A stretch of DNA of 64,000 nt from a virus. The translations under genes and the position numbers were made by a program. Under the pieces are notes generated by a model, which saw only the letters and a list, made by a program, of their open reading frames with translations, searched no databases and had not been told where the DNA came from. Of this stretch, positions 17,500 to 54,344 are shown piece after piece (position 1 is the first letter of the stretch; each line of letters begins with the position of its first letter). The stretch covers positions 1 to 64,000 of the IMG/VR virus record IMGVR_UViG_3300010885_076238. One strand, given 5' to 3'.

Positions 17500-18423
17500 A
17501 TGAAAAAAATAATAGTTACTGGCGGAACTGGCTTGGTTGGACAAGCACTTAAAAAAGTTGTTGGAAATGATTCAAGATTCTTTTTTTTATCATCTAAAGA
17601 TTGCAATCTTCTTCAATATGACAAAGCTTACGAAACAATAAAATCAATACAGCCAGATTTTGTTGTTCATTTGGCGGCTAATGTTGGAGGTGTTTTTAAA
17701 AATATAAATAAAAAAGTAGAAATGTTTGAAGACAATCTTTTGATTAATTTTAATATATTAAAAATTTGTAGAGAATTGAATGTTGAAAAGTTTTTGGGGT
17801 GTTTGTCTACTTGTATATTTCCTGACAAAACAACCTATCCTATATCTGAAGAGATGTTGTTTAACGGGCCTCCTCATTATTCTAATTATGGATATGCTTA
17901 TTCTAAAAGAATGCTAGAAATTCATTGTAGGGTTTGTAGAGAGCAATATGGGTTGAATTATAATTGCATAATTCCTACCAACATATATGGGCCTTATGAT
18001 AATTTCAATTTTGAAAATGCCCATGTAATTCCCGCCTTAATTCACAAATGCTATTTGGCAAATCAAACAAACGAGCCTTTTGTTGTTAGTGGAACAGGAA
18101 GGCCTAAGAGACAATTTTTATATTCTATTGATCTTGCCAAAATAATTCTAAACTTAATAAATTTTGAATTTAATGAAACAATAATAATATCTCCAAGCGA
18201 AGAATTTAGCATAAAAGACGTTGCGGAAATTATTGCTAATAAGTTTAATTATATAGAAAATATTAAATTCGATACTACAAAATCAGACGGCCAGTACAAG
18301 AAAACAGCTAGCAATTACAGACTAATGAAAATTATGCCTGATTTTAAGTTTACAGAAATTTCTGTTGGACTAAACAGCACAATTGATTGGTTTTTGGATA
18401 ATCAATCAATTGCTAGATTATAA
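17500..18423 (+). CDS. fcl: GDP-L-fucose synthase
   Basis: This enzyme epimerises and reduces GDP-4-keto-6-deoxymannose to GDP-L-fucose. Cofactor loop GGTGLVG is at 8-14, LAANVGGV (59-65) is the synthase signature, and Tyr132-Lys136 with Ser103 and His175 form the catalytic set. It starts right after the helicase stop. The enzyme for the preceding step (gmd) is at 51564-52535, so the phage carries the whole two-step branch. Confidence 0.95.
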   Translation: MKKIIVTGGTGLVGQALKKVVGNDSRFFFLSSKDCNLLQYDKAYETIKSIQPDFVVHLAANVGGVFKNINKKVEMFEDNLLINFNILKICRELNVEKFLGCLSTCIFPDKTTYPISEEMLFNGPPHYSNYGYAYSKRMLEIHCRVCREQYGLNYNCIIPTNIYGPYDNFNFENAHVIPALIHKCYLANQTNEPFVVSGTGRPKRQFLYSIDLAKIILNLINFEFNETIIISPSEEFSIKDVAEIIANKFNYIENIKFDTTKSDGQYKKTASNYRLMKIMPDFKFTEISVGLNSTIDWFLDNQSIARL

Positions 18424-18624
18424 AATCCATCTCCATAAAAAATTTAAAATAGTGCAAATTCCCGAAAGAAAACACACTATGTAAAACGCTACAACTATGC
18501 AGCCAGTAGCAACAACAAATTGGGCTTCAATTTTATCTTTTTTATTTTCATTATGATATAATATAAGCCCGCCGGATACTAAAAAAATTACCAAGTAAAT
18601 CCAAGGATTGTATAGCCATTCCAT
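18418..18624 (-). CDS. Small two-helix membrane protein
   Basis: Two hydrophobic spans (about residues 8-23 and 38-62) are separated by a charged loop. The start has GAGGAAA, and its 3' end overlaps fcl by six bases. No family recognised; a holin role is conceivable but unsupported. Confidence 0.6.
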   Translation of the reverse strand: MEWLYNPWIYLVIFLVSGGLILYHNENKKDKIEAQFVVATGCIVVAFYIVCFLSGICTILNFLWRWIL

Positions 18625-18626
18625 AT

Positions 18627-19574
18627 TTATTTCCTCAAAACGTAATCATGAAAGCATTGTTCTATTTGAAATTTTGGAAAATCATTTATTCCAAATAAAG
18701 TTTTAATTCTATTGGCAACAATTTGATTTTTATCAAAGAAATCTTCATATGTTTGCTTTTCTATATCTTCCGATTCTTTATTGATACCACATTTTCTGAA
18801 TAGTTCTTGATAATCTCTTATAGGAAACAATACGTTGTTGTTTCTTTCTTCTAAAACATATCCCATATTATTTAGTTCTTGTTCTGTAAAAACCAAATGA
18901 ACAAAAGCTTTATTTATTTGTCTGTAATAGTGTCCTCCATGTCTTCCGCACCAAGGATGACATCTAAGATATATTTTTCCGTTATCAGAAAGCACAGATT
19001 TAGCTTTGATCAAAACGTCTTCAGGGTTTTCTGCATGATCTAAGACATCATAGATCATAATTATATCATATGGACCTTTTTCTTTTATTTTGTCAAAATT
19101 GGTAGTAAGTAAAAAGTTGTTTTCTTCTACTTCCCAATTTAATTTAGACTTTTCGGATTTTATTATATCATAGCCAATACTAAATGTTGTTTTTTGATTT
19201 GATGCGTATTTTGCCATATGTCCTTCACCACAACCAATATCTAAAAACTTTTTATTTTCTAATTCTTCTTGGACTAATATATCAATAATTCCTTCCGCTC
19301 TGTCCATTTTTTCTTCTTCTAATTCGATATTGACTATTTGAAATGCACTAACAGCTTCGGGCCATTCGTCGGATTGTAGTAGCATTTTAAGCTTTTCAAA
19401 ATCACTTGAAACTGTTGGAGTTTCATTCAATACGGGTGTATCTTCATTTTGTTTTGGAATAAGCATTTCGCCTTCATGTTTTAGAACTATATTTTCTTCA
19501 TAAATTTCGGCAGCTAGTCTATCTAGATTATTTTTAATTTCTTGAATTAAGTTTAATTTTTCTTTTTTATTCAT
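18627..19574 (-). CDS. SAM-dependent methyltransferase with N-terminal helical region
   Basis: The ATG after TAGGAG was chosen over an upstream in-frame start. About 90 helical, acidic residues precede a class I domain with LDIGCGEGHMAKYA (SAM loop), GYDI and DIIMIYDVLDHAENPED (motif II region). The later CHPWCGRHGGHYYRQ block is typical of sugar-modifying class I enzymes. A glycan methylase is likely from context. Confidence 0.8.
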   Translation of the reverse strand: MNKKEKLNLIQEIKNNLDRLAAEIYEENIVLKHEGEMLIPKQNEDTPVLNETPTVSSDFEKLKMLLQSDEWPEAVSAFQIVNIELEEEKMDRAEGIIDILVQEELENKKFLDIGCGEGHMAKYASNQKTTFSIGYDIIKSEKSKLNWEVEENNFLLTTNFDKIKEKGPYDIIMIYDVLDHAENPEDVLIKAKSVLSDNGKIYLRCHPWCGRHGGHYYRQINKAFVHLVFTEQELNNMGYVLEERNNNVLFPIRDYQELFRKCGINKESEDIEKQTYEDFFDKNQIVANRIKTLFGINDFPKFQIEQCFHDYVLRK

Positions 19575-19610
19575 TTTTTCTCCTACTATTATTATAGTAT
19601 AGTATATAAT

Positions 19611-20237
19611 ATGAAAATCGCCATACAACAACCTTATTTTTATCCGTATTTTGGTTATTTTAAATTAATTAAATCTGTAGATAAATTTGTATTTTTCAAT
19701 GATGTTCAGTACATTAGAAGAGGCTGGGTCAATAGAAATAGAATTTCTAATGGTTTGTTTATCACAGTGCCCGTTTGTAAATCGAAAAGAAGTGACTTCA
19801 TTAATAAAATTAAAATAGACTATTCATCAAATTGGCACTACAAACATTGTAGAACCTTAGAAACAAGGTATGGGAAAAAATGCACTAATCATCCTATTTA
19901 TTTGTTTTATAAAAATGTTCAAAAATATATTTATCTTGTTGATTTATTGAAAGATTCTATAATGAACGTTTGTGAATTCTTAAAAATAAAAACAGAATTT
20001 ATAGACTCAGAAAAAATTAAAATAAATCCTTTATCTAAAAAACAGCAAAGAATAATAGAAATTTGCAATAGACTAAATTGCAAATCTTATTATAATCTTC
20101 CTGGCGGTAAAGGTCTGTACTCTGCGGAAGACTTTTTGTCTAACGAAATCAGCATACAATTCATACAGACGGAAAAAATTGTTAATTATCTTTCTGTATT
20201 TGACCTTTGCCTAGGAGAAGGTTTAGAAAAAATATGA
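19611..20237 (+). CDS. WbqC-like family protein
   Basis: MKIAIQQPYFYPYFGYFKLI and VFFNDVQYIRRGWVNRNRI are the hallmarks of the WbqC family, found in O-antigen and other sugar clusters with aminotransferases. The biochemical role of the family is poorly settled; transfer onto amino-sugars has been proposed. It has no clear ribosome-binding site and overlaps the next gene by ATGA. Confidence 0.85.
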   Translation: MKIAIQQPYFYPYFGYFKLIKSVDKFVFFNDVQYIRRGWVNRNRISNGLFITVPVCKSKRSDFINKIKIDYSSNWHYKHCRTLETRYGKKCTNHPIYLFYKNVQKYIYLVDLLKDSIMNVCEFLKIKTEFIDSEKIKINPLSKKQQRIIEICNRLNCKSYYNLPGGKGLYSAEDFLSNEISIQFIQTEKIVNYLSVFDLCLGEGLEKI

Positions 20238-20836
20238 ATCCATACAGTATAGTAGCAGAATTTGAAAAAACAGTAGCAGAATATGCCGGTAGCAAATATG
20301 CAGTTGCAATAGACAATTGTACAAATGCAATTTTTTTATGTTGTAAATATCTGTGTGTGAAAGAAGTGACTATTCCTAGTCGAACATATGTTTCGGTTCC
20401 TTGTGCAATTATTAACTCTGGTGGTGTGGTGAAATTTTCAGATTATGAATGGTTGAATAAAGGATATTACAAATTAGATCCATATCCAATTTATGATGCA
20501 GCACAATTTTTTAATCGAAATATGTATATTAGACATTCATATTTTTGCTTGTCTTTTTCATCCACCAAGACAATAAATATAGGCAAGGGAGGAATGATAC
20601 TAACAGATGATGAAAAAGCAGCCAATTGGTTCAAACAAGCAAGGTATTGCGGAAGACATGAAGTTCCTTTGATGAATGACAAGTTCGAAATTGTTGGATG
20701 GAACATGTATATGCTTCCAGAGCAGGCCGCAAGAGGATGTCTTTTAATGAGTCACGTTAAAGACATAAATGAACAAAAAAAACCACAATATCCCGACTTA
20801 TCAAAATATGAAATTTATAAATCAAAATCTTTATGA
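20234..20836 (+). CDS. Short DegT/DnrJ/EryC1/StrS-type aminotransferase
   Basis: It begins at the ATGA overlap. VAIDNCTNAIFLC and IPSRTYVSVP match the PLP-enzyme N-terminus, and the lysine in SFSSTKTINIGKGGM is the expected PLP Schiff-base residue. At about 200 residues it lacks the C-terminal half seen in ~370-residue sugar aminotransferases, as do other phage short forms. It may still work on a keto-sugar with the WbqC neighbour, or be a remnant. Confidence 0.75.
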   Translation: MNPYSIVAEFEKTVAEYAGSKYAVAIDNCTNAIFLCCKYLCVKEVTIPSRTYVSVPCAIINSGGVVKFSDYEWLNKGYYKLDPYPIYDAAQFFNRNMYIRHSYFCLSFSSTKTINIGKGGMILTDDEKAANWFKQARYCGRHEVPLMNDKFEIVGWNMYMLPEQAARGCLLMSHVKDINEQKKPQYPDLSKYEIYKSKSL

Positions 20837-21440
20837 AGAAAAAATAAAAATTGATTTAAATAATAATTATCGTTGGTTTGATTATCATAATTTTTATGAT
20901 TTTATTATAAACAAATATAATCCTAAAGTTTTTGTAGAGATTGGATGTTGGAAGGGACATTCTATTTCTTACTTATCTTCTAAGGCTAGTAAAAATTCTA
21001 TTTTATACGCTATTGATTTGTGGTCTTTAGACTTGGCAATAAAGACTATTGGAAAATTAGAATATGAAAAAATCAAAGATTTTTATGGAGATTTTTTTAA
21101 TGAAGATTTATTTTTTGATATTTTTTTAGAAAATATCAAAAATATAAACAATATAAAGCCAATTAGAAAAAGTTCAATAGATGCTGCTTCTTTTTTTGAT
21201 TATTTGAAGGTGGATTTTGTCTTCATAGACGCGGACCACTCTTACAGCTCAGTAACAAATGATTTATTGTGTTGGATGAAAGTTATAAAAAAATCTAAAT
21301 TTGCAATAATTGCCGGACATGATTATAAAATAAATTCTGTTAGATCTGCGGTTCAAAAAGTTATAAGATCTAATTTGAAAGTTTTTGATTATAATTGTTG
21401 GTATTATATTCATAACAATTACGATAAAATTTATAATTAA
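20808..21440 (+). CDS. Class I SAM-dependent methyltransferase (Methyltransf_24-like)
   Basis: VFVEIGCWKGHSISYL is the SAM loop, LYAIDLWS strand 2 and VDFVFIDADHSYSSV the fourth strand with an Asp pair common to catechol-type methylases. It has no good ribosome-binding site. A start 39 bases upstream (20769) is also possible. Overlap with the aminotransferase gene suggests coupled expression. Confidence 0.75.
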   Translation: MKFINQNLYEEKIKIDLNNNYRWFDYHNFYDFIINKYNPKVFVEIGCWKGHSISYLSSKASKNSILYAIDLWSLDLAIKTIGKLEYEKIKDFYGDFFNEDLFFDIFLENIKNINNIKPIRKSSIDAASFFDYLKVDFVFIDADHSYSSVTNDLLCWMKVIKKSKFAIIAGHDYKINSVRSAVQKVIRSNLKVFDYNCWYYIHNNYDKIYN

Positions 21441-22288
21441 TTTTTATCGTAATTAACACAAAGACTGTTCATTTCTTCATGCATCTTTAATTTGTTAGAG
21501 CACCATTCGAAGCATTTTTTTTCATTTATTTTTATATCTTTTTTAGGATCAAAATCTTTTAATATCTCTATTCTTTTATTGTAGTTTCTTTTTTTCATGT
21601 CTCCATGCCATAAGTGTTTTATTTCTGTGTCTAAGAATCCAAAGCTACTCTTTGCTTCTTTATGAAAAGGAATTGCCCATTCTAAATAATGATCTCTCAT
21701 TTCTTTATTAATCAATTTTAGAAAATTAGCATCAAACAGACCGAGTAATCCTATTAGAATTGCCAAGTCGCTACTCCACATCCAATAGTCATAAATTTTC
21801 CACTTTTTAATAAAATCCAAATCACATGCCCAGGCGAAACCGGACCATGCTTTTTTGTCAAATGGGGTCTTGTATTTTGAATAGAAACTACCACAGCTAT
21901 ATCTTGTTTCATTTATTTTATTGTCTTTGTCAAGAAAATGAGCCTTGTAAAATAATTGTATAAATAGATTTTTTTCTAAACATTTTGTTGCTTTTTTGGC
22001 CCATTCTTTATCTTCGAATATTATATCACAATCCACCCAAGCAACAGATCGATATCTGTCCGGCAGATTTTCAATCAGTATATTTATCAGCCTATATTGC
22101 TGCCAAATGTTATTTTTCGCATCAATATTTATTGAAATATTATTTGAACTTTTATTTATTGGCGAATTTTGATTCAATTCTAAAGTATATAAATTTAAAT
22201 TATCTATATTTTTAAGAAATATTTTATAATTGTTTAGTTTTTGTGGATCATTATTTGGATTATAATAATTTGTTATAACTGCTAGCAT
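21437..22288 (-). CDS. GT-A glycosyltransferase
   Basis: WVDCDIIF holds D86/D88. SGFAWACDLDFI followed by the DxD-distal IKHLWHGDMKKRNYNKR block resembles the catalytic part of the fibre-fused transferase at 5462-6577, so the two are probably paralogues. Its start lies nine bases from that of the divergent carbamoyltransferase gene. The donor is unknown. Confidence 0.75.
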   Translation of the reverse strand: MLAVITNYYNPNNDPQKLNNYKIFLKNIDNLNLYTLELNQNSPINKSSNNISINIDAKNNIWQQYRLINILIENLPDRYRSVAWVDCDIIFEDKEWAKKATKCLEKNLFIQLFYKAHFLDKDNKINETRYSCGSFYSKYKTPFDKKAWSGFAWACDLDFIKKWKIYDYWMWSSDLAILIGLLGLFDANFLKLINKEMRDHYLEWAIPFHKEAKSSFGFLDTEIKHLWHGDMKKRNYNKRIEILKDFDPKKDIKINEKKCFEWCSNKLKMHEEMNSLCVNYDKN

Positions 22289-22297
22289 AGGAATTTT

Positions 22298-23764
22298 ATG
22301 TTTTTTGGAATTAACACTGTATCACACGACTTAGGGTTATCTATAATAGATGACACAGGAAAAATAATTTTTTACGCTCCAACAGAAAGATATAACAGAA
22401 ATAAAAAAGGAGTTTCAGAATTTGGACTTCATCTATCTAAAAAAGAAAAGCTCAAGTGTATATTTGATATTTTTTCTAATATTCAAAAGCCAAAAAAAGG
22501 CGACATTGTTTGTTGGGTTTCTGGTGATTTTGGTGGCATGAAGACCAAAAGAGCCATGGAAGAAATGCTAATAGAAAGTTCAAATCAAATTAAAAATATT
22601 TCTACAAATTCAATTTGTCAAGTTGATGAGTGTGATGGAATAAAATATATTAGGCTTGACCACCACATAGCTCACGCAGTTTCTTCTTGGATGTTTAGAA
22701 AAGATGATGAAGAAGGAAAATTTTTGGTTTATGATGGCGGAGGCTATGGGGTAGACCATGTTAGTTACCATTCAACAACGGGCTATATTGATAAGCATAA
22801 ATTAGAAATAATAGATAAGAATACGATTCCTAGTTCTTTTAAAATATCTAATTTATTGGGCTGGATGTCTGCTGGAAAACTAATGGGCCTAGCAGGATAT
22901 TACCCAGAAGCTAATATTCAATGTGAATTTCCTAGTGGCGAACTAATGGAATTTGCTGGATTTTATAAATGTTTTATAGAAGATCTTTGGAACTCAATAG
23001 AAAGTAAACTTGATAAAAAAGTAGTTATAGCAGGTGGCACTGCCTTGGCCTTAGAAATAAATTCTAGAATACATAGTAAAGTCAATGATTTGGTATTTGG
23101 ACCGGCTCCCGACGATAGCGGATTATGTTTGGGATGTTCGGCATACGGTTATTTTTTCTCTAATGGACATTGGCCCAGTTCTATTTCAACCCCTTCAATT
23201 GTTTCTTTGCAAAGTCCTCATTTTCAAGTCGGTCCTCAGAGCACAAGAGAAATAGCAAAGGAAATACACGAGGGTAAAGTAATTTTTTTAATGAGAGGTA
23301 AAGCAGAATGCGGCCCAAGGTCTCTGGGATTTAGGTCTATCTTATCATCTTGTAATATTGAAAATTTAAAATTAGTTTCTGTAGATATTAAAAAAAGAGA
23401 ATTCTATAGACCTTTGGCTCCAATCGTTACGGACAGTCAATTTTTTAATTTTTTTTCTGGACCTAAAGGGCAATACATGCAATACAAAGTAGAATGCAAA
23501 GAAGCCGCAGCCAGATCAATACCAGCAGTAGTTCACAGAGATAACTCTTCTAGGCCGCAAGTTGTATGTGAAAAAATAGATCCTTGGTTACATGAGTTGT
23601 TGGTCGAATATGGAAAGTTGTCGGGGGTTGAGTGTTTAGTAAACACTTCTCTTAATGTTGCCGGAAAGCCAATTTGTAATACAAATAAAGATTTATTAGA
23701 ATTTGACAAAGAAACTATGAAGAATGTTGTTGTTGTTTCAATTCCTTCTTTTAAATTATATTAG
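22298..23764 (+). CDS. Carbamoyltransferase (NodU/CmcH family)
   Basis: This family moves a carbamoyl group from carbamoyl phosphate to a sugar or other hydroxyl. DHHIAHA (121-127) is the metal-binding His set of the N-terminal domain and AECGPRSLGFRSIL belongs to the C-terminal domain. At 488 residues it is slightly short but complete. No clear ribosome-binding site. Among glycosyltransferases, sugar O-carbamoylation (as in Nod factors) is the natural role. Confidence 0.93.
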   Translation: MFFGINTVSHDLGLSIIDDTGKIIFYAPTERYNRNKKGVSEFGLHLSKKEKLKCIFDIFSNIQKPKKGDIVCWVSGDFGGMKTKRAMEEMLIESSNQIKNISTNSICQVDECDGIKYIRLDHHIAHAVSSWMFRKDDEEGKFLVYDGGGYGVDHVSYHSTTGYIDKHKLEIIDKNTIPSSFKISNLLGWMSAGKLMGLAGYYPEANIQCEFPSGELMEFAGFYKCFIEDLWNSIESKLDKKVVIAGGTALALEINSRIHSKVNDLVFGPAPDDSGLCLGCSAYGYFFSNGHWPSSISTPSIVSLQSPHFQVGPQSTREIAKEIHEGKVIFLMRGKAECGPRSLGFRSILSSCNIENLKLVSVDIKKREFYRPLAPIVTDSQFFNFFSGPKGQYMQYKVECKEAAARSIPAVVHRDNSSRPQVVCEKIDPWLHELLVEYGKLSGVECLVNTSLNVAGKPICNTNKDLLEFDKETMKNVVVVSIPSFKLY

Positions 23765-25421: not shown

Positions 25422-26243
25422 ATGAAATATTGTATGAGCACAATGTGTATTGACACATCATCTTTTGAAGAAAAAGTAAAGGCCATTTCCTTTGGTGGGT
25501 TTGAGTCAATAGAAATTTGGTTAAAAGATTTTAAAGATAAAAAAATTAGCGAAGTCAAAAAAATCATCAAAGATCACAACCTAAGGGTTGCAGAGACTGT
25601 TAAATTGGAAGGTTGGTTTGAATTAGACGGATCTTTAATGGGAGTTAAAAATAATTGGAGTTCAATTTTTGATGAATGTAAAAATAGAATGGAGATTTCT
25701 AAAGATTTAGGCAGTGAATATATTGTAACACTACCCAGCAGAGATGACAGAGGTAAATTTTCTTCTTTTGAAGATGGGGCTGAAAGATATTTTCAAATTT
25801 TAGAATTTGGTAAAAAAATTGGAATATGTCCTACTTTAGAGTTCGTAGGTCAGTCTTCACAGATATATAATGTCAGGACAGTTTTGGATTTTTGCAATTT
25901 AATAAAAGATGATTATTGCAAAATAATTGTTGATGTTTTCCACGTTTGGAGAAGTGGAGATGATATAGAAGAAGTTTCAAAAATACCAGTTGAGCTTGTG
26001 AGTTTGCTCCATCTTCATGATGCTACATCAAAATTTGGTAGAGAAGAATACAAAGACAGACACAGGGTTATGCCAGGAGACGGAATATTGGATTTGAAAA
26101 AATTTATAAATATATTTAAGAAAAAAGGATTTTCTGGAGACATTTCATTGGGAGTTTACAATCATGACAACTGGACTAGGGATCCATATAATGTTTGTAG
26201 AGAAGGATTTTTGAAGATGAAAAAAATAATAGAGGATTATTGA
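25422..26243 (+). CDS. Sugar phosphate isomerase/epimerase-like TIM barrel
   Basis: The 273-residue product has the AP_endonuc_2/xylose isomerase-like pattern: GGFESIEIW at strand 2, PTLEFVG, IIVDVFHVWRSG and VSLLHLHDAT, with metal-ligating E, D, H and D positions in order. It probably interconverts an activated or free sugar for the cluster. No Shine-Dalgarno sequence is seen. Confidence 0.85.
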   Translation: MKYCMSTMCIDTSSFEEKVKAISFGGFESIEIWLKDFKDKKISEVKKIIKDHNLRVAETVKLEGWFELDGSLMGVKNNWSSIFDECKNRMEISKDLGSEYIVTLPSRDDRGKFSSFEDGAERYFQILEFGKKIGICPTLEFVGQSSQIYNVRTVLDFCNLIKDDYCKIIVDVFHVWRSGDDIEEVSKIPVELVSLLHLHDATSKFGREEYKDRHRVMPGDGILDLKKFINIFKKKGFSGDISLGVYNHDNWTRDPYNVCREGFLKMKKIIEDY

Positions 26244-26245
26244 CA

Positions 26246-26821
26246 ATGAAAAAAGCTTGTGTAATTGGATCAAGTGGAAAGTTAGGTTCTGCAATAACTA
26301 GAAATTTGCGCTGTAATCATCAAGTCATAGAGCATCTTGGGCGAAACCACTCAGATTTAACAAAAGAAAATAATGTAATAGAATTTTCCAACGCAGTAAA
26401 TGATATAGATTTATTAATTTGTGCGATTGGAAAAAAAATAGAAGGCTCTGCAACAGGAGAATTTGATGATTTTAATAAAATTTTTAATATAAATTTTTTT
26501 TCTATTTTTTTGTGTTGTAAGCATATTTCTAAAAAAATGAAAGAAAATTCTTGCATACTAATAATTGGAAGTGTAGATGGTTGTTTTGGAAACAAGTCAG
26601 CAATGTACTCCACGGCAAAATCTGCTCTTCACATGTATTCAAGATGTCTTTCTAAAGAGTTGGTTGATAGAAAGATAAATGTAAACTGTATTGCACTTGG
26701 AACTCTTTATGATTATAATATTGAAAATTGTGCCAAGTCCATATTAGGACTTGCAGATTGTAAACATATTAATGGACAGGTCATAAGAATAGATGGAGGA
26801 AACCATACATTCCCATGTTAA
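26246..26821 (+). CDS. Short-chain dehydrogenase/reductase
   Basis: The ATG just after the upstream stop was chosen over a TTG two codons earlier. GSSGKLGS is the NAD(P) loop, and the YSTAK at about 122-126 contains the active Tyr and Lys. At about 190 residues it is a little short. In this operon it likely oxidises or reduces a sugar carbonyl. Confidence 0.82.
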   Translation: MKKACVIGSSGKLGSAITRNLRCNHQVIEHLGRNHSDLTKENNVIEFSNAVNDIDLLICAIGKKIEGSATGEFDDFNKIFNINFFSIFLCCKHISKKMKENSCILIIGSVDGCFGNKSAMYSTAKSALHMYSRCLSKELVDRKINVNCIALGTLYDYNIENCAKSILGLADCKHINGQVIRIDGGNHTFPC

Positions 26822-27585
26822 AAAATGAAGGATTTTTATTAGTTAAAAATTTTTTTAGTAAGAATAAAATTACAAAAATTAAAAAAGAAATGGAGTATTG
26901 TTTTGAATTGATTTCAAAAAGAAATCACAATGAAATTGACAAAGATATAATTGAATTATTTAAAAAAGATACGCAATCTTTTTTGGGTTGGGCCAATTTA
27001 TGTCAAAATTTATTATCCCTTCATAGGCTGTCTAGTTCTAAAAAAATAGAAAATCTTCTAAAAAAATTAGGACTAAATAAGCCAACAATAAACACGAGAC
27101 CTCTTTTGTCTCTAAGTTGTAAAAGTTTGTCAAAACACGATTCACATTGGAAAGTTCCAAGTCATCAGGATTGGCCCAGCACAAGAGGAAGCCTTAATGG
27201 GGTAACGGTATGGATTCCTTTGGTTGGCATAAACAAGGATATTGGGCCATTAGAAATTGCACCAAAGAGTCATTTGCTGGGATTTTTAGAACATCATAAT
27301 GATGGCTTAGTGCCTATAATATCAAAACTAGAAGATAGAAAATTTATTTCAAATTCCATGAATGTCGGTGATATTTTAATTTTTAATTATTTTACTATAC
27401 ATAAGTCGGGATTGAATATCAATCTTGATAAAATAAGATGGTCTGTCCATTTCAGATACGACGACGCAGAAGAAAAAACTTTTATTGAAAGAAAATACCC
27501 TAGATATAAAAAAGAAATAAGATCTGATGAAAATATTGATTCTTCTTTCCCAAATCTTAAACAGATTGAGGACTCTCTAAAATGA
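26815..27585 (+). CDS. Phytanoyl-CoA dioxygenase-like Fe(II)/2OG oxygenase
   Basis: The iron ligands are His117 and Asp119 (SHQDW) and His196 (TIHKSG), with Arg near 208-214 for 2-oxoglutarate. The PhyH fold is common in natural-product and phage gene clusters, where it hydroxylates small molecules or modified sugars. It overlaps both neighbours, in one transcript with the next oxygenase. Confidence 0.87.
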   Translation: MLKNEGFLLVKNFFSKNKITKIKKEMEYCFELISKRNHNEIDKDIIELFKKDTQSFLGWANLCQNLLSLHRLSSSKKIENLLKKLGLNKPTINTRPLLSLSCKSLSKHDSHWKVPSHQDWPSTRGSLNGVTVWIPLVGINKDIGPLEIAPKSHLLGFLEHHNDGLVPIISKLEDRKFISNSMNVGDILIFNYFTIHKSGLNINLDKIRWSVHFRYDDAEEKTFIERKYPRYKKEIRSDENIDSSFPNLKQIEDSLK

Positions 27586-28292
27586 AAGTAAAATTAGATA
27601 AAATTAAAAAAGACTACGAAAATAATGGATTTGTTTTTATTGATGATTTTTTAGATAAAAATCTTTTTATTGAATACGTCAATAACATAAACAACATTAC
27701 TATTTGGAATGATCCAAATAATGGGTTTTTGGAAAGACAAAAAAAACAAAACAAAAGCAATTATGAACTTCATGAAAATTATTCTTCTGAGTATAATCCA
27801 ACAAGCAATAGAACGGTTGCAGACAGAAATCAGATAAAACAAAATTTACCAAAAACTATTAGTTTTTTTTCTTCTTTTGATTTTATAAATTTCATAAAAA
27901 ATGTTTCTGGTATTGATGATTTGTTTTTTGACGATAGTCTAAGGGGTGGAGGATTGCAAAAAAGTGAAAATGGAGCCTATCTAAACATTCATTTAGATAA
28001 TAACTGGAGTCCCAACACAGAGAGCTATCCTGTAGTCAATTTGATTTTATTTTTTAGCAATTGGAAAAAAGAGTATGGTGGAGAATTGGAAATTTGGAAC
28101 AAAAATTATAAAAACTATATTTTGCCAAAAGAAAACAGACTGGTAATCAGGCACAACTCAGAAGAATCTTATCATGGATTTCCAAATCCAATTAATTGTC
28201 CAAAAAATGAAAATAGAATTGCTTTAGTCTTATTCTATCATACAAAAAAAATAATTCCAAAAAATAAAAGATCAAGTGCATTATGGATTTGA
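27582..28292 (+). CDS. Fe(II)/2OG-dependent oxygenase (prolyl-hydroxylase-like)
   Basis: His137-x-Asp139 (IHLDNNW) and His198 (YHGFP) are the iron ligands, and Arg212 fits 2-oxoglutarate. The layout with GGELEIWN resembles the prolyl-4-hydroxylase-like branch. A Pro/Thr-rich fibre in the same genome makes prolyl hydroxylation followed by O-glycosylation an attractive but untested idea. Confidence 0.85.
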   Translation: MKVKLDKIKKDYENNGFVFIDDFLDKNLFIEYVNNINNITIWNDPNNGFLERQKKQNKSNYELHENYSSEYNPTSNRTVADRNQIKQNLPKTISFFSSFDFINFIKNVSGIDDLFFDDSLRGGGLQKSENGAYLNIHLDNNWSPNTESYPVVNLILFFSNWKKEYGGELEIWNKNYKNYILPKENRLVIRHNSEESYHGFPNPINCPKNENRIALVLFYHTKKIIPKNKRSSALWI

Positions 28293-29023
28293 GACTTCCT
28301 GATTTTATCTGCGTTGGCACACAAAAGTCTGGGACAACTTGGTTGTATCATGAGTTGTCTAAGCACCCGGACATTGATATGCCAAAAACAAAAGAGGTTG
28401 GAAATAACAACGCCTCAACAGGAGTTGAAAAAAATAAACATGGAATTTCTTCGCCTTTTTTAAATTTAGAAAAATATTCTTCTTATTTTCCTAAAAACAA
28501 TAAAATAACTGGAGATATTACCCCCCTCTACTTCTACGAGCCAGATTGTGCCAAACAAATAAAAAAAGTCTTGCCTAATTCATTTGTTTTTGTAATATTA
28601 AGAAATCCTGTAGATAGGGCTTTTTCTCAATGGAGAATGGTTAGAAACTTAGGGGCAATGGAGAAAACAGCAACATTTATGAAGTGTTTTGAAGAAAATG
28701 TGAGAAACATAAAAACTAGAGGTCTATATATTAATTATATTAGGTCTTTTATTGATGAATTAGGAGAAAATTTTAAATTTTATTTTTATGATGATATTTT
28801 GAAAAATCCAAATTATTTTTTAAAAAATATATTAAAAAATATAAATGTAAATTTAGAATTTAACTTTAGTTCTTCTTGGTTAAAAATGCCCTACCATGAT
28901 GACAATCAAATAATTAAAAAAGAAGACAAGAAAAGATGCATGTCTTTTTACTATAGTTCTATTAAAGAATTAGAAAAACTTGTTCATGTCAATACGGAAT
29001 GGACATATGAAAAAATTCTATGA
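28283..29023 (+). CDS. Sulfotransferase
   Basis: The PAPS 5'-loop is GTQKSGTTW (12-20) and the 3'-phosphate site RNPVDRAFSQW is at 107-117. It has the length of a bacterial sugar sulfotransferase (246 residues). It overlaps both neighbours and probably sulfates the glycan made by this island. It would need host PAPS. Confidence 0.93.
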   Translation: MDLRLPDFICVGTQKSGTTWLYHELSKHPDIDMPKTKEVGNNNASTGVEKNKHGISSPFLNLEKYSSYFPKNNKITGDITPLYFYEPDCAKQIKKVLPNSFVFVILRNPVDRAFSQWRMVRNLGAMEKTATFMKCFEENVRNIKTRGLYINYIRSFIDELGENFKFYFYDDILKNPNYFLKNILKNINVNLEFNFSSSWLKMPYHDDNQIIKKEDKKRCMSFYYSSIKELEKLVHVNTEWTYEKIL

Positions 29024-31512: not shown

Positions 31513-31521
31513 AATTTGATT

Positions 31522-40541: not shown

Positions 40542-41232
40542 AAAATTCTTTCTTGAAAAAATCTAAACTCATTTCGAAACTATTGTTTTTTATTTCTTTA
40601 CCACTGTGTTTATTATTGATTAATAAATGATATTTTCCCTCACAGAATTTAGATATTTTTTTGTAACAATTAGAATTAAACCCATTATTTAATTCTAATA
40701 TTTTTGTTTTTTTACTGCAAAAAATAATATTGGTTAGCCCTGCTCCGTGAGAAGCGACAACACAATCGGCATTATACATAATGTTTGCTTGTTGTTCTAC
40801 TGAATAATTTTCTAAAAATATTTCTACGAAATCTTGTTGGGCCAAAAAGTCTAATATTTCTTTAGAAATATATCTATTGTTCCTTTTTATTATAATTTTT
40901 TTATGACTATTTTCTATATTTGATCTTATTTGCTTTAAATAACAAGCCAATTCTTCATTAATGCTATTTTTTATTTCTTCGTATTTAAAGGCGACTTTAT
41001 CAGATGGATCAAAAGAACTTAATACATTTATTGTTTTTTCTTTATATAATTCTTTTAAAATTTTTTCGATCAATAAAATTTGATCATTTGGCAGATCAAA
41101 AAATAAATCAAAAGAATTAAAGTTTTTGTATATTTCGTGAATAATTGGTAAAAAATCAATTATTGCATGATGATAATTTGATACTTGTTTTGAATCTAAA
41201 AATATGAACTTTTTTGATGATTTGCTACTCAT
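40495..41232 (-). CDS. GT61-like glycosyltransferase
   Basis: ADCVVASHGAGLTNIIFCSKKTKILEL is the GT61 signature, here beginning near residue 155. The 245-residue size is that of the catalytic core. GT61 includes xylosyl-, GlcNAc- and arabinosyl-transferases that add sugars to protein or polysaccharide. Confidence 0.85.
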   Translation of the reverse strand: MSSKSSKKFIFLDSKQVSNYHHAIIDFLPIIHEIYKNFNSFDLFFDLPNDQILLIEKILKELYKEKTINVLSSFDPSDKVAFKYEEIKNSINEELACYLKQIRSNIENSHKKIIIKRNNRYISKEILDFLAQQDFVEIFLENYSVEQQANIMYNADCVVASHGAGLTNIIFCSKKTKILELNNGFNSNCYKKISKFCEGKYHLLINNKHSGKEIKNNSFEMSLDFFKKEFYEIFSNQIRGIRRYI

Positions 41233-46430: not shown

Positions 46431-47042
46431 ATGAGACTAGACCATCTTGCTTATAGAGTATCGGATAGGAGAAAAACCGCACAATTTTTTATTGATGCTT
46501 TTGGATATCAAATTCAAACTGAGTTTGATATAAACTTTGCTGAAGGAACATTATCAAAATGCATATCACTAGAACCGCCAGAAAAGCCAAAGGTGGAAAA
46601 TTTACATTGGCTCATCAGACAATATGTAGGTGATTTTTTGACTTCAAAATCTTCGAAAAAATCAAGTTCTTTTTCAAGTGATGAAATAGATGATACAAAA
46701 TTTGCAGAATTTCATCTTCCTCCAGAAATATTCATATCAGATGGAACTCCAGATTCTAGTGTTGGAAAATGGGTTGCAAGAAGAGATGGCGTTGGGGGTA
46801 TTCATCACATAGCATATCAAGTTGAAAGTGTTGAAAAAATAATGAAAGAATGGCAGGAAAAAGGATATGCCGAGTTTTCTTCAAGCAAACCGTTGACATG
46901 TCCTGGTTTAACACAAGTTTTTACAAAACCGAGTGCGTTGACAGGCGTTATTTATGAATTTATTGAACGTGGTGAGCATGGTTTCTGTACAGAAAATATA
47001 AAAGATTTAATGGAGAGTGCTAAAAATAATAATGAATTTTGA
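46431..47042 (+). CDS. VOC-fold dioxygenase-like protein (HPPD-like)
   Basis: Metal ligands fit His5 (LDHLAY), His126 (IHHIAYQ) and Glu176 (IYEFIER). The pattern LTQVFTKPSALTGVIYEFIERGEHGFC resembles the C-terminal module of 4-hydroxyphenylpyruvate dioxygenase. At 203 residues it is half of that enzyme. AAAGGAG site. The substrate is not known. Confidence 0.8.
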   Translation: MRLDHLAYRVSDRRKTAQFFIDAFGYQIQTEFDINFAEGTLSKCISLEPPEKPKVENLHWLIRQYVGDFLTSKSSKKSSSFSSDEIDDTKFAEFHLPPEIFISDGTPDSSVGKWVARRDGVGGIHHIAYQVESVEKIMKEWQEKGYAEFSSSKPLTCPGLTQVFTKPSALTGVIYEFIERGEHGFCTENIKDLMESAKNNNEF

Positions 47043-47781
47043 AAAAATCAAAGAAGAATTATTATTGTCTGATAGTTCTGATGGAATAAACAAAGACATA
47101 TTAATTGTTGTTCATAATCAATATGATTATGTTAAAAATTGCATAGAATCAATTTACAAAAACACTAAAAACTTTAATTTATTTATTTGGGACAACGCCT
47201 CAGATAAAAATACAAAATTTTATTTACAAAAACTTAGTAATAAAAATAAAAATGTTAAGCTATACAGATCTGAAGAGAATATAGGATTTGTTATTCCTAA
47301 TAATAAAATGGCAAAGGAGACTACGTCGCCATACATTTTATTGCTGAACTCAGACACAGAAGTTCGACCATATTGGGATGGTGTTTTGATTGGATTTTTA
47401 GAAAATAATAAAGATGTGGCAGCCACTGGTTTTGAAGGTGGAATTGTTGATTCGATGGGAATGGGTGTTTCAAGAAATTATGGTTACGAAATAGATTATA
47501 TTTGTGGTTTTTGTTTATGTATTCCGCGTAAAATTTATGAAGATTTTGGCTTATTTGATGAAGAAAACATTAAATTTGCTTATTGTGAAGATTCTGATTT
47601 TTCATTTAGACTAAAAGAAAAAAATAAAAAAATATATGCTTGCTATTCTTCTGATCTTGTTTTTCACTATGGAAGCGTAACATCTAACTCTGTTGCACAA
47701 AAAATAAACTTAAAATATAATATTCAAAATAATTTAATTTATTTACAAAAAAGATGGGGCAAATATTTAATTAAAAATTAA
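47032..47781 (+). CDS. GT2 glycosyltransferase
   Basis: ILIVVHNQYDYVKNCI, LFIWDNASD, LLLNSDTEV as DxD and CEDSDFSFRLKEKN are GT2 landmarks. ATG 47032 is preferred over a GTG 15 bases upstream; either overlaps the VOC gene. Confidence 0.9.
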   Translation: MNFEKIKEELLLSDSSDGINKDILIVVHNQYDYVKNCIESIYKNTKNFNLFIWDNASDKNTKFYLQKLSNKNKNVKLYRSEENIGFVIPNNKMAKETTSPYILLLNSDTEVRPYWDGVLIGFLENNKDVAATGFEGGIVDSMGMGVSRNYGYEIDYICGFCLCIPRKIYEDFGLFDEENIKFAYCEDSDFSFRLKEKNKKIYACYSSDLVFHYGSVTSNSVAQKINLKYNIQNNLIYLQKRWGKYLIKN

Positions 47782-49722: not shown

Positions 49723-50780
49723 TGTTGTCGTTTTCTAATTTGGTTGCAATAGCCGCTTCTTTTTTGGCAGCTTGGGCTGTTGTTAAATATCTAATATTAA
49801 TAGAAATAAGGATTGACGAAAATTCTTACAAGGTTTTATATGATATATGTAAAAATAACAAAATCGTATTAATTGAAGAAGAATTTACTCATGAAAGAAA
49901 ATATCCAATAGTTTTTTCTGCCTTATGTTTTATAAAAGAATGTCCCGGTTTTTATATCAATCATCAAGAAAGATTAATGAGTGCTGGCTTTGAAGCAAAA
50001 GATTTCATTACCAAAGTAACCCTGTTCAGATTTAGTTATTATGATTTTAAAGAATACCTAATAAAATCTCATAAGAATTGCGTAAATGTTCCGATTGATT
50101 TGTTGTTTCCTTATGGATCTGACAAGATCGGAAGCATAAAGAGCAAAGAATTGAATCCAATCATACTCAATGAAATATGTTTGGATTTTGAAAAAGAAAT
50201 AGGAGATAAAGTAAAAACAAGTGCTTTATTCTATGGCAACCCAGGTAATGGGAAAACTTATTTTATTAAATATTTGGCCACAAAATACAATTTGCCAATA
50301 AAGATGATTACTTTTTCTCCTGATTTTACCAATCATGATTTATTGATGCTTTTTTCTCAGATCCCATCTGATTGCATTGTTTTGTTGGAAGATTTTGATA
50401 ATTACTTCGACAAAAGAAAATGCATTATTGGCGACGACAATAAAAATATTAAATTTACATTCGACATTATCTTGAATGCTTTTGACGGTGTTTACAACAC
50501 CTATGAAAATGTCATTTTTATAATGACCGTTAATGATATTTCTAAAGTAGATGATGCTCTGAAGAACAGACCCGGTCGATTCAAATATGTTTTGGAATTT
50601 CCAAATCCAAGTGTAGAAATTATTGAAAAATTAGTTGATAATAAAGATTTTGCAAAAAGAATGGTTGGAATGAATCTAGATCAGGTTCTTACTGTTAAAA
50701 AATATCTTACAGCAGGAGTTGACTTTGAAGATTCATTAAAACGAATCAATTATCAAAAGGAAGTAGCTCCCATCGGCTAA
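49719..50780 (+). CDS. BCS1-like AAA ATPase with N-terminal membrane helix
   Basis: A hydrophobic helix at about 7-28, then Walker A GNPGNGKT at 173-180, Walker B IVLLEDFD at 220-227 and sensor/arginine region NRPGRF at 283-288 show a BCS1-type AAA. The ATG overlaps the previous stop. It might work as a membrane-anchored unfoldase or in virion assembly. Confidence 0.85.
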   Translation: MMLSFSNLVAIAASFLAAWAVVKYLILIEIRIDENSYKVLYDICKNNKIVLIEEEFTHERKYPIVFSALCFIKECPGFYINHQERLMSAGFEAKDFITKVTLFRFSYYDFKEYLIKSHKNCVNVPIDLLFPYGSDKIGSIKSKELNPIILNEICLDFEKEIGDKVKTSALFYGNPGNGKTYFIKYLATKYNLPIKMITFSPDFTNHDLLMLFSQIPSDCIVLLEDFDNYFDKRKCIIGDDNKNIKFTFDIILNAFDGVYNTYENVIFIMTVNDISKVDDALKNRPGRFKYVLEFPNPSVEIIEKLVDNKDFAKRMVGMNLDQVLTVKKYLTAGVDFEDSLKRINYQKEVAPIG

Positions 50781-51561
50781 TCTTTTTATGTTTTCTATTA
50801 TTGAATAAAGTTTTTTCAATATAAAAAACTTTTGAAGTGTTATAAAGTCCTGCCAATATAGAAAATGAGCTTGGGGCTGTTACTAGAACATCAGATTTCG
50901 TTAAGTTATAAAAGCTTTCAAAAACATTTTCATTTGCATGAATTTTTATATTTTGGTTTTTAAAATAATCGAATTCGTTTAGATTTTTTTTAATTTCTGT
51001 GAATATATGAATTTGATAATTTTCATATATTTTTTTTAATTTTTCTATAAGTTTTTTATAAAAATCTATTGGAACGTATCTTTTAGGATAAGATTTTATT
51101 GTTACATCTCCTCTCCTAATATGAATTGATATATTGCGGGATTTTTCATCGAACCGCAGTTGTTTTTTTGAAATTAGAGGACGCAACACGGGCATAATTT
51201 CATCATAGATTTCCATGTAATTTTTATTATCATCCCATCCTTCTATAATTCCAAATGGCAAAAAAATTCTAACTAGTGTGTTTTGTTTTTGTTCTTTGAT
51301 TTTTTCAAGTTGACTTTCTGTCGGATACAATATGTCTATTATTTGGTCATATTTTATTTGATCTACATTTTTGTAAATTTTATTTATATTAAAAAAATCT
51401 TCAGATTCTTTTGCGTCTACGCAATGCTCTATGCTTGTGATTGGAGAGTGGACATATTCACAATTTAATATTTTTGATAAAGCTATTATTCCTATTATTC
51501 TTTGATATTGTGCTCCTAGCCCATCTTTTTTTTCTTCTGTTTTATATGTCAAGTAAAGCAT
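50746..51561 (-). CDS. Fucosyltransferase-like protein (HxRRGD)
   Basis: ISIHIRRGDV is the donor-binding motif of GT11/GT23/GT65 fucosyltransferases, and VLVTAPSSFSILAGL is the usual second block. It is adjacent to gmd, on the same strand. It overlaps the AAA gene tail-to-tail by 35 bases. Confidence 0.8.
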   Translation of the reverse strand: MLYLTYKTEEKKDGLGAQYQRIIGIIALSKILNCEYVHSPITSIEHCVDAKESEDFFNINKIYKNVDQIKYDQIIDILYPTESQLEKIKEQKQNTLVRIFLPFGIIEGWDDNKNYMEIYDEIMPVLRPLISKKQLRFDEKSRNISIHIRRGDVTIKSYPKRYVPIDFYKKLIEKLKKIYENYQIHIFTEIKKNLNEFDYFKNQNIKIHANENVFESFYNLTKSDVLVTAPSSFSILAGLYNTSKVFYIEKTLFNNRKHKKISRWELLPFDN

Positions 51562-51563: not shown

Positions 51564-52535
51564 CTATATGTTATTTAGCCAATACTCTATCATTTCATCC
51601 ATCATGGATTTGAAAGTATATGACGGTTCCCACCCTAGTTTTTCTTTAGCTTTAGAAGCATCACCTTTCAGATAATTTAGTTCTTCAGGTCTAATGTATT
51701 TCTCATCGCAAGCAATGTATTTTTTAGAGTCTAATTCTAAATTATTAAAGACATAATCAACCAAATCTCTTACGCTTCTAGATGACCCCGTCGCCAGAAC
51801 AAAATCCTCGGGTTCTTTTTGTTGCAGCATTGACCACATTCCAACAACATAATCTTTCGCATGTCCCCAATCTCTTCTTGCATCTAAATTTCCTAAAGAA
51901 AGCTTATTGGACAATCCTTTTTTAATTTTTACTGCTTCTAAGGCAACTTTATTTGTAACAAAATTTATTCCTCTCCTTGGACTTTCGTGGTTAAAAAGAA
52001 TTCCTGAACAAATGAAAAGATTATATGAGTTTTTGTAATTATTGCATAAGGAGTGTGCAAATAATTTTGAACAACCATAAGGACTCACAGGTATCATTTG
52101 AGTTGTTTCTCTTTGATATCCATCCGCATCACAGCAATTTCCAAACATTTCTGAAGTTGCTGCATGGTAAACTTTTGATTTTGGAGAGAATTTTTTTACA
52201 GCTTCAAGCACGGCCAAAGTTCCTCCAGCATTAACATCAAGAGTATATTTGGGCAATTCAAAAGATATTTGAACATGGGACTGAGCTGCTAAGTGGTAAA
52301 TTTCATCTGGTTTTAATTTGCTAATTACCGTTTCAATACTTAGCGGATCTGTTAAATCTGTATAATGAAGACTTATTAGGTTTTCTGCATGTATATTTTT
52401 AATTCTTGTTGTTTGTGACTCGGGAACAGAATTTCTTCTTATTGTGCCGTGTATTTCATATTTTTTTTCTAGTAAAAATTCTATTAAATAAGAAGCGTCT
52501 TGTCCATTTGCCCCTAAAATTAGTGCTTTTTTCAT
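51564..52535 (-). CDS. gmd: GDP-mannose 4,6-dehydratase
   Basis: This makes GDP-4-keto-6-deoxy-mannose, the substrate of fcl. GANGQDAS is at 8-15, HLAAQSHVQISF at 81-92, and Thr127-Ser128-Glu129 with Tyr153 and Lys157 form the active site. The NADP-binding loop with RRNS is present. At 323 residues it is a little short but has all blocks. It sits two bases after the fucosyltransferase-like gene. Confidence 0.95.
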   Translation of the reverse strand: MKKALILGANGQDASYLIEFLLEKKYEIHGTIRRNSVPESQTTRIKNIHAENLISLHYTDLTDPLSIETVISKLKPDEIYHLAAQSHVQISFELPKYTLDVNAGGTLAVLEAVKKFSPKSKVYHAATSEMFGNCCDADGYQRETTQMIPVSPYGCSKLFAHSLCNNYKNSYNLFICSGILFNHESPRRGINFVTNKVALEAVKIKKGLSNKLSLGNLDARRDWGHAKDYVVGMWSMLQQKEPEDFVLATGSSRSVRDLVDYVFNNLELDSKKYIACDEKYIRPEELNYLKGDASKAKEKLGWEPSYTFKSMMDEMIEYWLNNI

Positions 52536-52543
52536 AAAATATA

Positions 52544-53452
52544 TTAGTAAATTTTTTCTTTATTGTCTACTGGTAATCTTTGTTTTTTATGAAGTATAGC
52601 ATAATTATATAAATTAATAATTTTATTTTCATCAAAATTTTCATCAAAACTAAGACTGAAATTAAATATGAATTTATTTGCTACGTAGTTTCTATTGATA
52701 AATTTCCAAAAAAAGTGGTCTTTTTTATTTTTTATATTTTCATTTATAAAACATCTAAAAGCCCAATCGTATGCTAAATTAGGAGTTTGTTTAACTGATT
52801 CTAAAAAATCTTGTTCAAAATGCTGCATAAATATTTGGAAGTTTTTTTTACCTGTTGCGTATAAAGCAACTCCATTTATATGCGTTAACATAGTAGGATC
52901 TGTTGAGAATTGCTCCCCATCGTACAAAGCCCCAGAAATCCAAAATTCATTTGAATTTTCAACATAATTTTTTATTTTTTCTAGCCAATCATTAGATAAA
53001 ATACAATCTGTTTCTAGTAGCAAAGTGGTATCATATTCTTTTGATAATTCCATAGATTTAAAAAACATTAAATTTGGTCCTGATTTTATTCCGTAAGCAG
53101 GAATATTATCTTTATTTTCTTCAATGTATCGCTTCTCTATCTTAAAAGGAATATACAAATCTTCATGCTCAGTAAGATTTAAATTATAAATTTTAACTTC
53201 TTTGAACATTTCTTTTAAATCAACATCTTCTTCAGGCATAAAGTTATTTGCTATTATTATAAAACATAAATCTTTTGATAAGTTTTTATTTGTTTTATTT
53301 TTTAATTGATTCAAGAAAATTTCATATTGATTTTTTTCTTTTGAAATAAAATTTATACAAACACACTCTAGCTTGTTTGGCTCACTTTTTATTTCATTTA
53401 AATTTAAACTATCTATTAGACTTTTGTAAATTACATTTTTAATCTCGCTCAT
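52544..53452 (-). CDS. Putative GT-A glycosyltransferase
   Basis: LLLETDCILSNDW with E147/D149 takes the place of DxD and INGVALYATGKKNF is a GT-A-type acceptor loop. The N-terminal 30 residues look like a linker. Same strand as gmd and only eight bases away, so co-transcribed with the fucose branch. Confidence 0.7.
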   Translation of the reverse strand: MSEIKNVIYKSLIDSLNLNEIKSEPNKLECVCINFISKEKNQYEIFLNQLKNKTNKNLSKDLCFIIIANNFMPEEDVDLKEMFKEVKIYNLNLTEHEDLYIPFKIEKRYIEENKDNIPAYGIKSGPNLMFFKSMELSKEYDTTLLLETDCILSNDWLEKIKNYVENSNEFWISGALYDGEQFSTDPTMLTHINGVALYATGKKNFQIFMQHFEQDFLESVKQTPNLAYDWAFRCFINENIKNKKDHFFWKFINRNYVANKFIFNFSLSFDENFDENKIINLYNYAILHKKQRLPVDNKEKIY

Positions 53453-53459
53453 TTTTTCC

Positions 53460-54344
53460 TTAAGATAAATGATTTAACTCAATTTCTATATCAAATATTT
53501 TACTAATCCAAAAAGAAAACCCAGAACCCCAAAAATGAGAGCTATAAGAAATTATGTTTTTCGATTGTGATAATATTTTCAAATCTAAAGCTAAATCAAA
53601 CATGTTTTTTATAGAAATACTCTTTTCTTGAAGACAAAGAAAACCGGGTTTATTTACACAGTGGTTGCTTTTTGTTTTGGCAACTACAATTCTTTTATTT
53701 TTTTTATTTATTAGAAACTTTTTGAATTTATTGGAGTCCGATAGCACCACTATTTTCTCTTTTGTTTTCATAAGAATTCTATTATAAATAATTTCATATT
53801 TGAATTTAGTTTGAATTTTAATTTTTTCAATTATTTCGATTGGCTCTTTTTCTAGTAACTCTATGTCTCCAAGTCTAAAATGAAACACTTTATATTTTTT
53901 TTCTTTTAGTCTATTTTCTTTTAAGAATTTTTCGTATTCCAATTCTATTTTCTCATTAAAAGAAAAGCAATTTCTAAAAAATTGCTTTTCTTTTTTTTCT
54001 AATTTAAAATTTTCAATTTTTTCGTAAAGATTTTTATTGAAATTTGTTGGAAAAACATCAAAATAAAAAGAGCTAATAAAATGATTTTTATCTTTTTCTG
54101 AAATAATTTTTTGTATAATTTCTTCTACTTGAATAATTTTTTTTGACGCATCTAGATTGATTATTTCGCATTCTTTGTAGTCTAAATTTGATTCATTCTT
54201 ATTAATTAAATAATTAGATATTGGGTGATGCTTAAAATCAATAAATAAGTTTTCTGGGCATTTTCTATAAAGAAAAACACCTCCTCGAATGAAGTCGCCA
54301 ATTCCCCCGGAAAAATTTTTATTATATGATTGAATTATTGCCAT
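53460..54344 (-). CDS. Fucosyltransferase-like protein (HxRLGD)
   Basis: VFHFRLGDIE is a variant of the HxRxGD motif, followed by KIVVLSDSNKF and SKNIISYSSHFWGSGFSFW, the same order as other GT23/GT65-like enzymes. N-terminal GGIGDFIRGG is a usual GT-B start. Probably the third GDP-fucose user in the window. Confidence 0.7.
   Translation of the reverse strand: MAIIQSYNKNFSGGIGDFIRGGVFLYRKCPENLFIDFKHHPISNYLINKNESNLDYKECEIINLDASKKIIQVEEIIQKIISEKDKNHFISSFYFDVFPTNFNKNLYEKIENFKLEKKEKQFFRNCFSFNEKIELEYEKFLKENRLKEKKYKVFHFRLGDIELLEKEPIEIIEKIKIQTKFKYEIIYNRILMKTKEKIVVLSDSNKFKKFLINKKNKRIVVAKTKSNHCVNKPGFLCLQEKSISIKNMFDLALDLKILSQSKNIISYSSHFWGSGFSFWISKIFDIEIELNHLS

Follow-up and report, generated by a model that had tools for sequence, protein, structure and literature searches.

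A sugar-gene island in a large phage and a glycosyltransferase domain carried on related tail fibres point to possible glycosylation of the phage's own virion proteins

We examined a stretch of 64,000 bases (the window), which makes up bases 1-64,000 of the linear, 204,311-bp viral record IMGVR_UViG_3300010885_076238 and carries a large island of sugar-related genes that begins directly after a tail-fibre gene. The record is a genome fragment, and the negative results given below hold for the 204 kb at hand. By Pfam scans, about 25 genes of the window are supported as sugar-related, and the supported glycosyltransferases (GTs) number nine. A reading made from the letters of the DNA alone (the sequence-only reading) had proposed a phage-borne, glycan-building island at 17500-54344, and the interspersed phage genes and the profile-supported sugar set bear this out; the proposed span is real but too narrow, as the first sugar gene lies at 5462 (5.4 kb) rather than at 17.5 kb and more are found at 168.9-192 kb of the record. 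The fibre locus at the left end, with a related gene further inside, comprises the following:

1..1234, +, Thr/Pro-rich tail-fibre-like protein, a candidate glycan acceptor; open to base 2 in translation and truncated at the record's left end
4112..5461, +, tail-fibre protein (PHROG tail fiber, E 5e-8), directly upstream of the GT gene
5462..6577, +, Thr/Pro tract and predicted GT-A glycosyltransferase domain (homologues, AlphaFold model, conserved residues)
21437..22288, -, freestanding paralogue of the fibre-borne GT domain, by family membership (phmmer E 3e-11 to 5462-6577)

The first of these genes encodes 39% Thr and 14% Pro over 410 codons and matches the Thr-rich stalk of a fibre on another viral contig, L035, in what is a low-complexity match. 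Between it and the tail-fibre gene, a Subtilase (PF00082) with Gly/Thr-rich structural-type repeats inside (1231-3810) is a possible virion-borne protease. The tail-fibre gene and the GT gene share a frame, with TAA followed by ATG and a Shine-Dalgarno GGAG at 5448-5451, and the N-terminus of the GT gene product contains the Thr/Pro stretches TPTPTPTV, TPTPTL and TSTPTPTK. Stop-codon read-through from 4112-5461 into 5462-6577 was considered, given the common frame and single TAA, and set aside, because the Shine-Dalgarno sequence, 10 bases ahead of the ATG, means that ordinary translational coupling would be enough. The sequence-only reading had named the Thr/Pro fibre first among possible acceptors of the island's sugars; it did not single out the GT domain beside it.

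From a profile-guided scan with this domain, 80 of the 209 viral relatives found were kept, together with 57 cellular ones, and nearly all of those kept are freestanding proteins of about 290 amino acids (aa). Pfam recognises GT2 in 12 of the 58 aligned family members (best E 5e-6). An AlphaFold model built from only four sequences had a predicted local distance difference test score (pLDDT) of 36; redone with the 58-homologue alignment, it reached a pLDDT of 94.5 and a predicted template-modelling score (pTM) of 0.93. The closest solved folds are GT7 beta-1,4-galactosyltransferases (E 1e-7), with polypeptide GalNAc-transferase and galactofuranosyltransferases ranking lower. The likeness to GT7 extends only to a TM-score of about 0.4 and 12% identity, and by sequence the phage family belongs to the GT2 clan, not to GT7; its DxD and HxxH spacing is similar to that of GT7. 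Residues N80, D97, D99, D187, H241 and G242 are invariant in the 58 homologues and H238 is nearly so, and the fibre copies retain all seven. On the strength of the model and these positions, we assign 5462-6577 to the GT-A glycosyltransferases with a DxD motif and predicted catalytic and metal-binding residues. Ratios of nonsynonymous to synonymous substitution of about 0.22 (window versus contig L034) and about 0.07 (L034 versus L035) show, at the level of coding sequence, that the domain is under purifying selection.

In these two viral contigs, which are metagenomic assemblies, the same GT domain (78% identical to the window copy) is part of the fibre itself. Over 7.7 kb, the two contigs share 95% identity. 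In L035, a single open reading frame (ORF; 95-4879, 1594 aa) brings together the N-terminus of a phage fibre, three tracts of alternating Thr (324-421, 791-844 and 847-976) with beta-type domains between them, and the GT domain as its C-terminus (residues 1298-1594); L034 carries the same fibre-GT ORF (57-3746), partial because its 5' end is lost at the contig end. The N-terminal 50-60 residues of the fibre have matches in 396 phage records, to fibre proteins, structural proteins or minor tail proteins. In L035, the gene lies downstream of a T4 gp17-like terminase (E 2e-30) and two further fibre genes, one of which is 48% identical over the first 304 residues. In L034, it lies upstream of GT2-like, 2-oxoglutarate (2OG)-oxygenase and sulfotransferase-like genes, so called by sequence reading, and of a gp20-like portal. 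As far as the open-licence literature shows, a GT domain built into a tail fibre is undescribed; we found no publication on one there. Two observations concern the same contigs and family: the portal gene (L034:6133-7725) has a long insertion before its conserved part that reads as intein-like (CIAGETRI...), and a different viral contig encodes a protein (L037:3770-5572) in which the same GT family appears, by reading, to be joined to a second, GT25-looking domain.

The sugar genes of the record at 168.9-192 kb form a second set outside the window:

168.9-192 kb, two sulfotransferase-like genes, an FkbM methyltransferase, a methyltransferase-HtrL/YibB fusion, a paralogue of the 15212 gene described below and a GT41-like enzyme

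The last of these (182008-183405) is similar to HMW1C-type (GT41) proteins, with E 8e-11 to solved protein N-glucosyltransferases over residues 167-438, and shows weak similarity to SPINDLY as well. It aligns with HMW1C/ApHMW1C in the C-terminal GT-B region and retains the PFGNxN motif, together with the Lys and Asn positions that we take to be those of the donor site. It differs from them in its length of 465 aa versus about 620 aa. From catalytic-domain similarity, which is remote, we regard it as a putative HMW1C-like protein glycosyltransferase; no relative was detectable in the phage records or viral collections searched. The same region encodes a further Thr/Pro-containing fibre-like protein (174425-176428; L007:10425-12428, -), whose C-terminus reads as like formylglycine-generating enzyme (FGE) and C-type lectins, as in phage variable receptor-binding proteins.

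Within the window, the remaining profile-supported genes are as follows:

7149..8240, +, UDP-galactopyranose mutase (Glf; PF03275, E 8.7e-82)
12560..13330, -, GT34-type glycosyltransferase (PF05637, 8e-6, over the cut-off)
13419, methyltransferase (Pfam, just below the cut-off)
17500..18423, +, GDP-L-fucose synthase-type epimerase (Fcl-like; PF01370, 9e-46)
18627..19631, -, methyltransferase (PF13489, 5e-13)
19611..20237, +, WbqC-like protein (PF08889, 3.5e-48)
20207..20836, +, DegT-type aminotransferase, C-terminally truncated (PF01041, 3e-23; 209 aa versus a 360-position profile)
20769..21440, +, methyltransferase (PF13578, 6e-15)
22298..23764, +, NodU/Nol-type carbamoyltransferase (PF16861, 6e-43), with relatives in cyanophages
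25422..26243, +, TIM-barrel sugar isomerase/epimerase-like protein (PF01261, 5e-23)
26240..26821, +, short-chain dehydrogenase (PF00106, 2e-18)
26815..28292, +, two 2OG-Fe(II) oxygenases, PhyH at 26815 (3e-12) and 2OG-FeII_Oxy_3 at 27582 (1e-11)
28283..29023, +, sulfotransferase (PF00685, 1e-13)
31516..32157, +, hexapeptide sugar O-/N-acyltransferase, PglD-like (PF00132, 5e-16)
32915..33796, -, NAD-dependent sugar epimerase/dehydratase (PF01370, 2e-48)
33828..34628, +, GT2 glycosyltransferase (PF00535, 2e-12)
38496..39257, -, O-fucosyltransferase (O-FucT)-like protein (PF10250, 8e-9, over the cut-off)
40495..41232, -, GT61 glycosyltransferase (5e-16)
41225..42238, -, GT90 glycosyltransferase (3e-20)
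47017..47781, +, GT2 glycosyltransferase (PF00535, 5e-20)
50746..51561, -, alpha-1,2-fucosyltransferase-like protein (GT11; PF01531, 4e-5, just below the cut-off; phrog_2644 glycosyltransferase, 4e-7)
51564..52535, -, GDP-mannose 4,6-dehydratase (Gmd; PF16363, 1e-111)

Seven of the nine supported GTs are Pfam-based (GT34, two GT2, O-FucT, GT61, GT90 and the GT11-like protein, the last just below the cut-off), while the two at 5462 and 21437 are placed in a GT2-clan family through homologues and the structure model. The GT90 gene (41225..42238) has no tblastn match in 50,697 phage records, and a viral-contig scan for it was likewise empty. It was considered whether the O-FucT, Fringe-like, GT90 and GT61 genes recall the glycosylation of animal epidermal growth factor (EGF) repeats, but the idea was set aside, because these families serve other roles in bacteria. 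The truncated DegT gene overlaps the next methyltransferase gene and is possibly decayed, and a leucine-rich-repeat protein is encoded within the island at 29416-30288.

The sequence-only reading had counted about 20 GT-like genes, and of the families that it named, GT2, GT8/34-like (as GT34), GT61 and GT90 are recovered by Pfam, as are Glf, Gmd, Fcl, WbqC, the truncated DegT, and the carbamoyl-, sulfo-, acyl- and methyltransferases. Beyond the nine supported GTs, seven proposed ones (8933, 11556, 15212, 24522, 30646, 37714 and 45636) show a strand-DxD motif alone; those searches that were made for each of them, among Pfam, PHROGs, NCBIfam and phage records, returned no match. The following are examples:

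8933..10387, -, putative GT-A glycosyltransferase, motif only (DxD at residue 94; no profile match)
15212..16462, +, putative Fringe-like (GT31) glycosyltransferase (VDDDS motif; Fringe E 0.05 only)

The GT31-like call for 15212 thus keeps its VDDDS motif and lacks profile support. This gene has a paralogue at 185490-186653 of the record (1.4e-76), and a viral-contig scan for the pair found none; phage relatives of the orphans 15212, 30646 and 52544 were likewise not found. Four further proposals (23756, 53460, 52544 and 42834) gained no support from any search made, and the two that had been called GT9 (23756) and HxRxGD (53460) also have no match among solved structures. When the orphan GT candidates were compared with each other profile against profile, nothing convincing emerged beyond known paralogue pairs. 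About half of the GT calls are therefore without profile support, a half-way answer to the concern that most of these genes might not be GTs.

The type of island is already known, as its gene set closely matches the clusters of S-SCSM1 and P-SSM2. Judged by sequence, it has both the epimerases/dehydratases with several GTs and the carbamoyltransferase, 2OG-oxygenase and methyltransferase genes by which jumbo cyanophage-type clusters are recognised; Iyer et al. 2021 (PMC7824862) described both cluster types and proposed host-surface modification. In P-SSM2, 15 genes in a row starting with gmd (257-271) form the cluster, six of them annotated as GTs, and S-SCSM1 packs about 20 sugar genes into about 19 kb, among them a Nol carbamoyltransferase, 2OG-oxygenases, gmd, fcl, O-FucT and an alpha-1,2-fucosyltransferase (PMC9602691). 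The jumbo cyanophages (Kyanoviridae; S-SCSM1, P-SSM2 and S-SSM6a/7 types) are T4-like, exceed 200 kb and share with the window gmd, fcl, GT11-type, O-FucT-type and GT2 genes, a carbamoyltransferase, 2OG/PhyH oxygenases and methyltransferases. In contrast to theirs, the window island covers about 49 kb on both strands with phage genes between and includes GT90, GT61, a sulfotransferase and Glf; no photosynthesis genes were noticed in this record. A profile search found neither GT90 nor GT61 in P-SSM2, S-SCSM1 or the 595-kb huge phage LR756511. The latter has the Gmd nearest to ours among phage records (58.6% identical) and, by sequence reading, its own sugar cluster with DegT, hexapeptide, epimerase and sulfotransferase-like genes around gmd, whereas the 41-kb stretch compared holds relatives of only four of the record's proteins. 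The claim that the island far exceeds the usual number of phage sugar genes thus stands against typical phages, but not against jumbo cyanophages such as P-SSM2 and S-SCSM1.

On both strands of the window, the sugar genes are intermingled with phage genes, including housekeeping-type genes identified by eye (HNH-like at 8219, Dda-like helicase at 16459 and ClpX-like at 47868) and a TilS-like PP-loop ATPase at 36904 (PF01171). A tRNA with anticodon CAT directly follows the latter (36904-37642); called Met, it may be tRNA-Ile2, the substrate of phage TilS. A relative of 118.5 kb, G001, is syntenic with record positions 89-197 kb only, which leaves the window island outside, and beyond the syntenic part its genes look, by reading, like those of a T4-like baseplate and tail. 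At least 10 paralogous short-repeat proteins are encoded in the window (30269-30664), at 75-148 kb of the record and in G001. T4-like packaging and tail genes are present in the relatives, not in the record itself; the named-phage relatives of its core proteins are only distant, and no core genes for family placement (Kyanoviridae) were found in the 204-kb fragment. From the T4-like genes of the relatives, the best explanation is that the source is a large myovirus-type phage.

The sequence-only reading left the acceptor open between fibre, cell-surface sugars and DNA, and the evidence now leans to protein. The GT domain on Thr-rich fibres, the HMW1C-like enzyme and the lack of export machinery together favour virion-protein glycosylation, and the further Thr/Pro fibre-like proteins of the record (1-1234; 174425-176428) count in the same direction. 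We judge it an evenly balanced call that the main acceptors are the phage's own virion proteins, above all Thr/Pro-rich tail fibres. The phage would make its own nucleotide sugars, GDP-fucose via Gmd and Fcl and UDP-galactofuranose via Glf, as the identities of the genes suggest, and soluble cytoplasmic GTs would build and decorate the glycans. The HMW1C-like enzyme may put the first sugar on protein, the fibre-linked GT-A domain and the GTs of the island may extend sugars on the adjoining Thr stalk, and sulfo-, carbamoyl-, acyl- and methyltransferases may cap them. More tentatively, and in our view rather improbably in this full form, the C-terminal GT domain would glycosylate its own Thr/Pro stalk in cis and yield a mucin-like coat from phage-made sugars after HMW1C-like priming. 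As to the benefit, we speculate that a coat on the fibre would shield it, bind receptors or vary antigenically. In mycobacteriophages, too, virion proteins are reportedly modified by phage-encoded GTs (Freeman et al. 2023, cited in PMC12619734); the sites there are the C-termini of capsid and tail tube, whereas Thr/Pro fibre stalks are proposed here, with a fibre-carried GT in relatives and a nucleotide-sugar supply.

Several points weigh against glycosylation of virion proteins. The window phage itself encodes the GT in an ORF of its own, downstream of the fibre gene and not fused to it, and only 2 of the 80 viral homologues are fibre fusions. The GT41 match is remote, outside the window and without viral relatives, and the incompleteness of the record limits every claim of absence. 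Neither ORFs with more than two predicted membrane spans nor a glycosyl-1-phosphate (polyprenyl-P sugar) transferase (PF02397) were found in the record, which thus does not amount to a Wzx/Wzy-type surface polysaccharide locus, though the host could supply parts. As the sugar regions of P-SSM2 and S-SCSM1 also have no multi-span proteins, missing export genes do not discriminate between protein and host-surface acceptors: either soluble acceptors are the targets in the cyanophages as well, or all of these clusters rely on the host's export machinery. The no-export argument for a protein acceptor is consequently weak.

The same observation sustains the best-surviving alternative, that the island remodels the host surface (lipopolysaccharide, O antigen or capsule) via the host's lipid carrier, flippase and polymerase and thereby blocks superinfection. 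The presence of WbqC, Glf, Gmd, Fcl and GT11, all of them typical O-antigen and capsule enzymes, fits this alternative. So does the likeness in gene content to S-SCSM1 (about 20 genes) and P-SSM2 (15 genes), interpreted in this way in PMC7824862 and PMC9602691, where the interpretation is itself a proposal. The initiating glycosyl-1-phosphate transferase is missing from the record, however, while relatives carry the GT domain on a tail fibre and a putative protein glycosyltransferase is encoded; we consider host-surface remodelling a serious possibility, but on balance not the probable one.

A second alternative concerns the fibre-borne domain alone, which might be a non-catalytic receptor-binding module whose GT fold acts at the fibre tip as a lectin. 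Its C-terminal position is the usual place of receptor-binding domains on tail fibres, and nucleotide sugars are scarce outside cells. Against this, D97, D99, D187, H238 and H241 are all retained, although their conservation might also reflect a role in binding. Purifying selection acts on the domain as well, and a freestanding paralogue (21437-22288) is present in the same genome. Because of the conserved catalytic residues and purifying selection, an active enzyme appears likelier, and lectin use seems to us doubtful.

Modification of phage DNA bases by these GTs is very improbable, and DNA is the least supported acceptor. Glycosylated DNA is known in T-even and other phages; the thymidylate-synthase/dCMP-hydroxymethylase family (PF00303), however, was not found in the 204 kb, where controls matched, whereas a Tet/JBP search was empty with its positive controls also unmatched. 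To our knowledge, DNA-modification sets have far fewer and less varied decorating enzymes. Finally, that chimeric assembly or bacterial contamination underlies the island or the fibre-GT fusion is hardly credible: the assemblies are metagenomic and the record begins inside a repetitive Thr/Pro tract, but phage housekeeping genes interspersed throughout speak against a bacterial contaminant, the fusion occurs in two separate metagenome assemblies with the Thr/Pro-GT linkage again in the window at 78% identity, and G001 is syntenic with the record, though not over the island.

Giant eukaryotic viruses coat their own particles with sugars, whereas the sugar clusters of phages are usually read as host-surface modification, with few direct tests. 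A GT built into a fibre beside Thr-rich stalks, together with phage-made donors, offers a concrete, testable case of self-coating. If glycosylation of the phage's own fibres holds true, it would bear on the interpretation of host range, receptor binding and immune recognition in such phages, and it would yield a self-glycosylating protein module.

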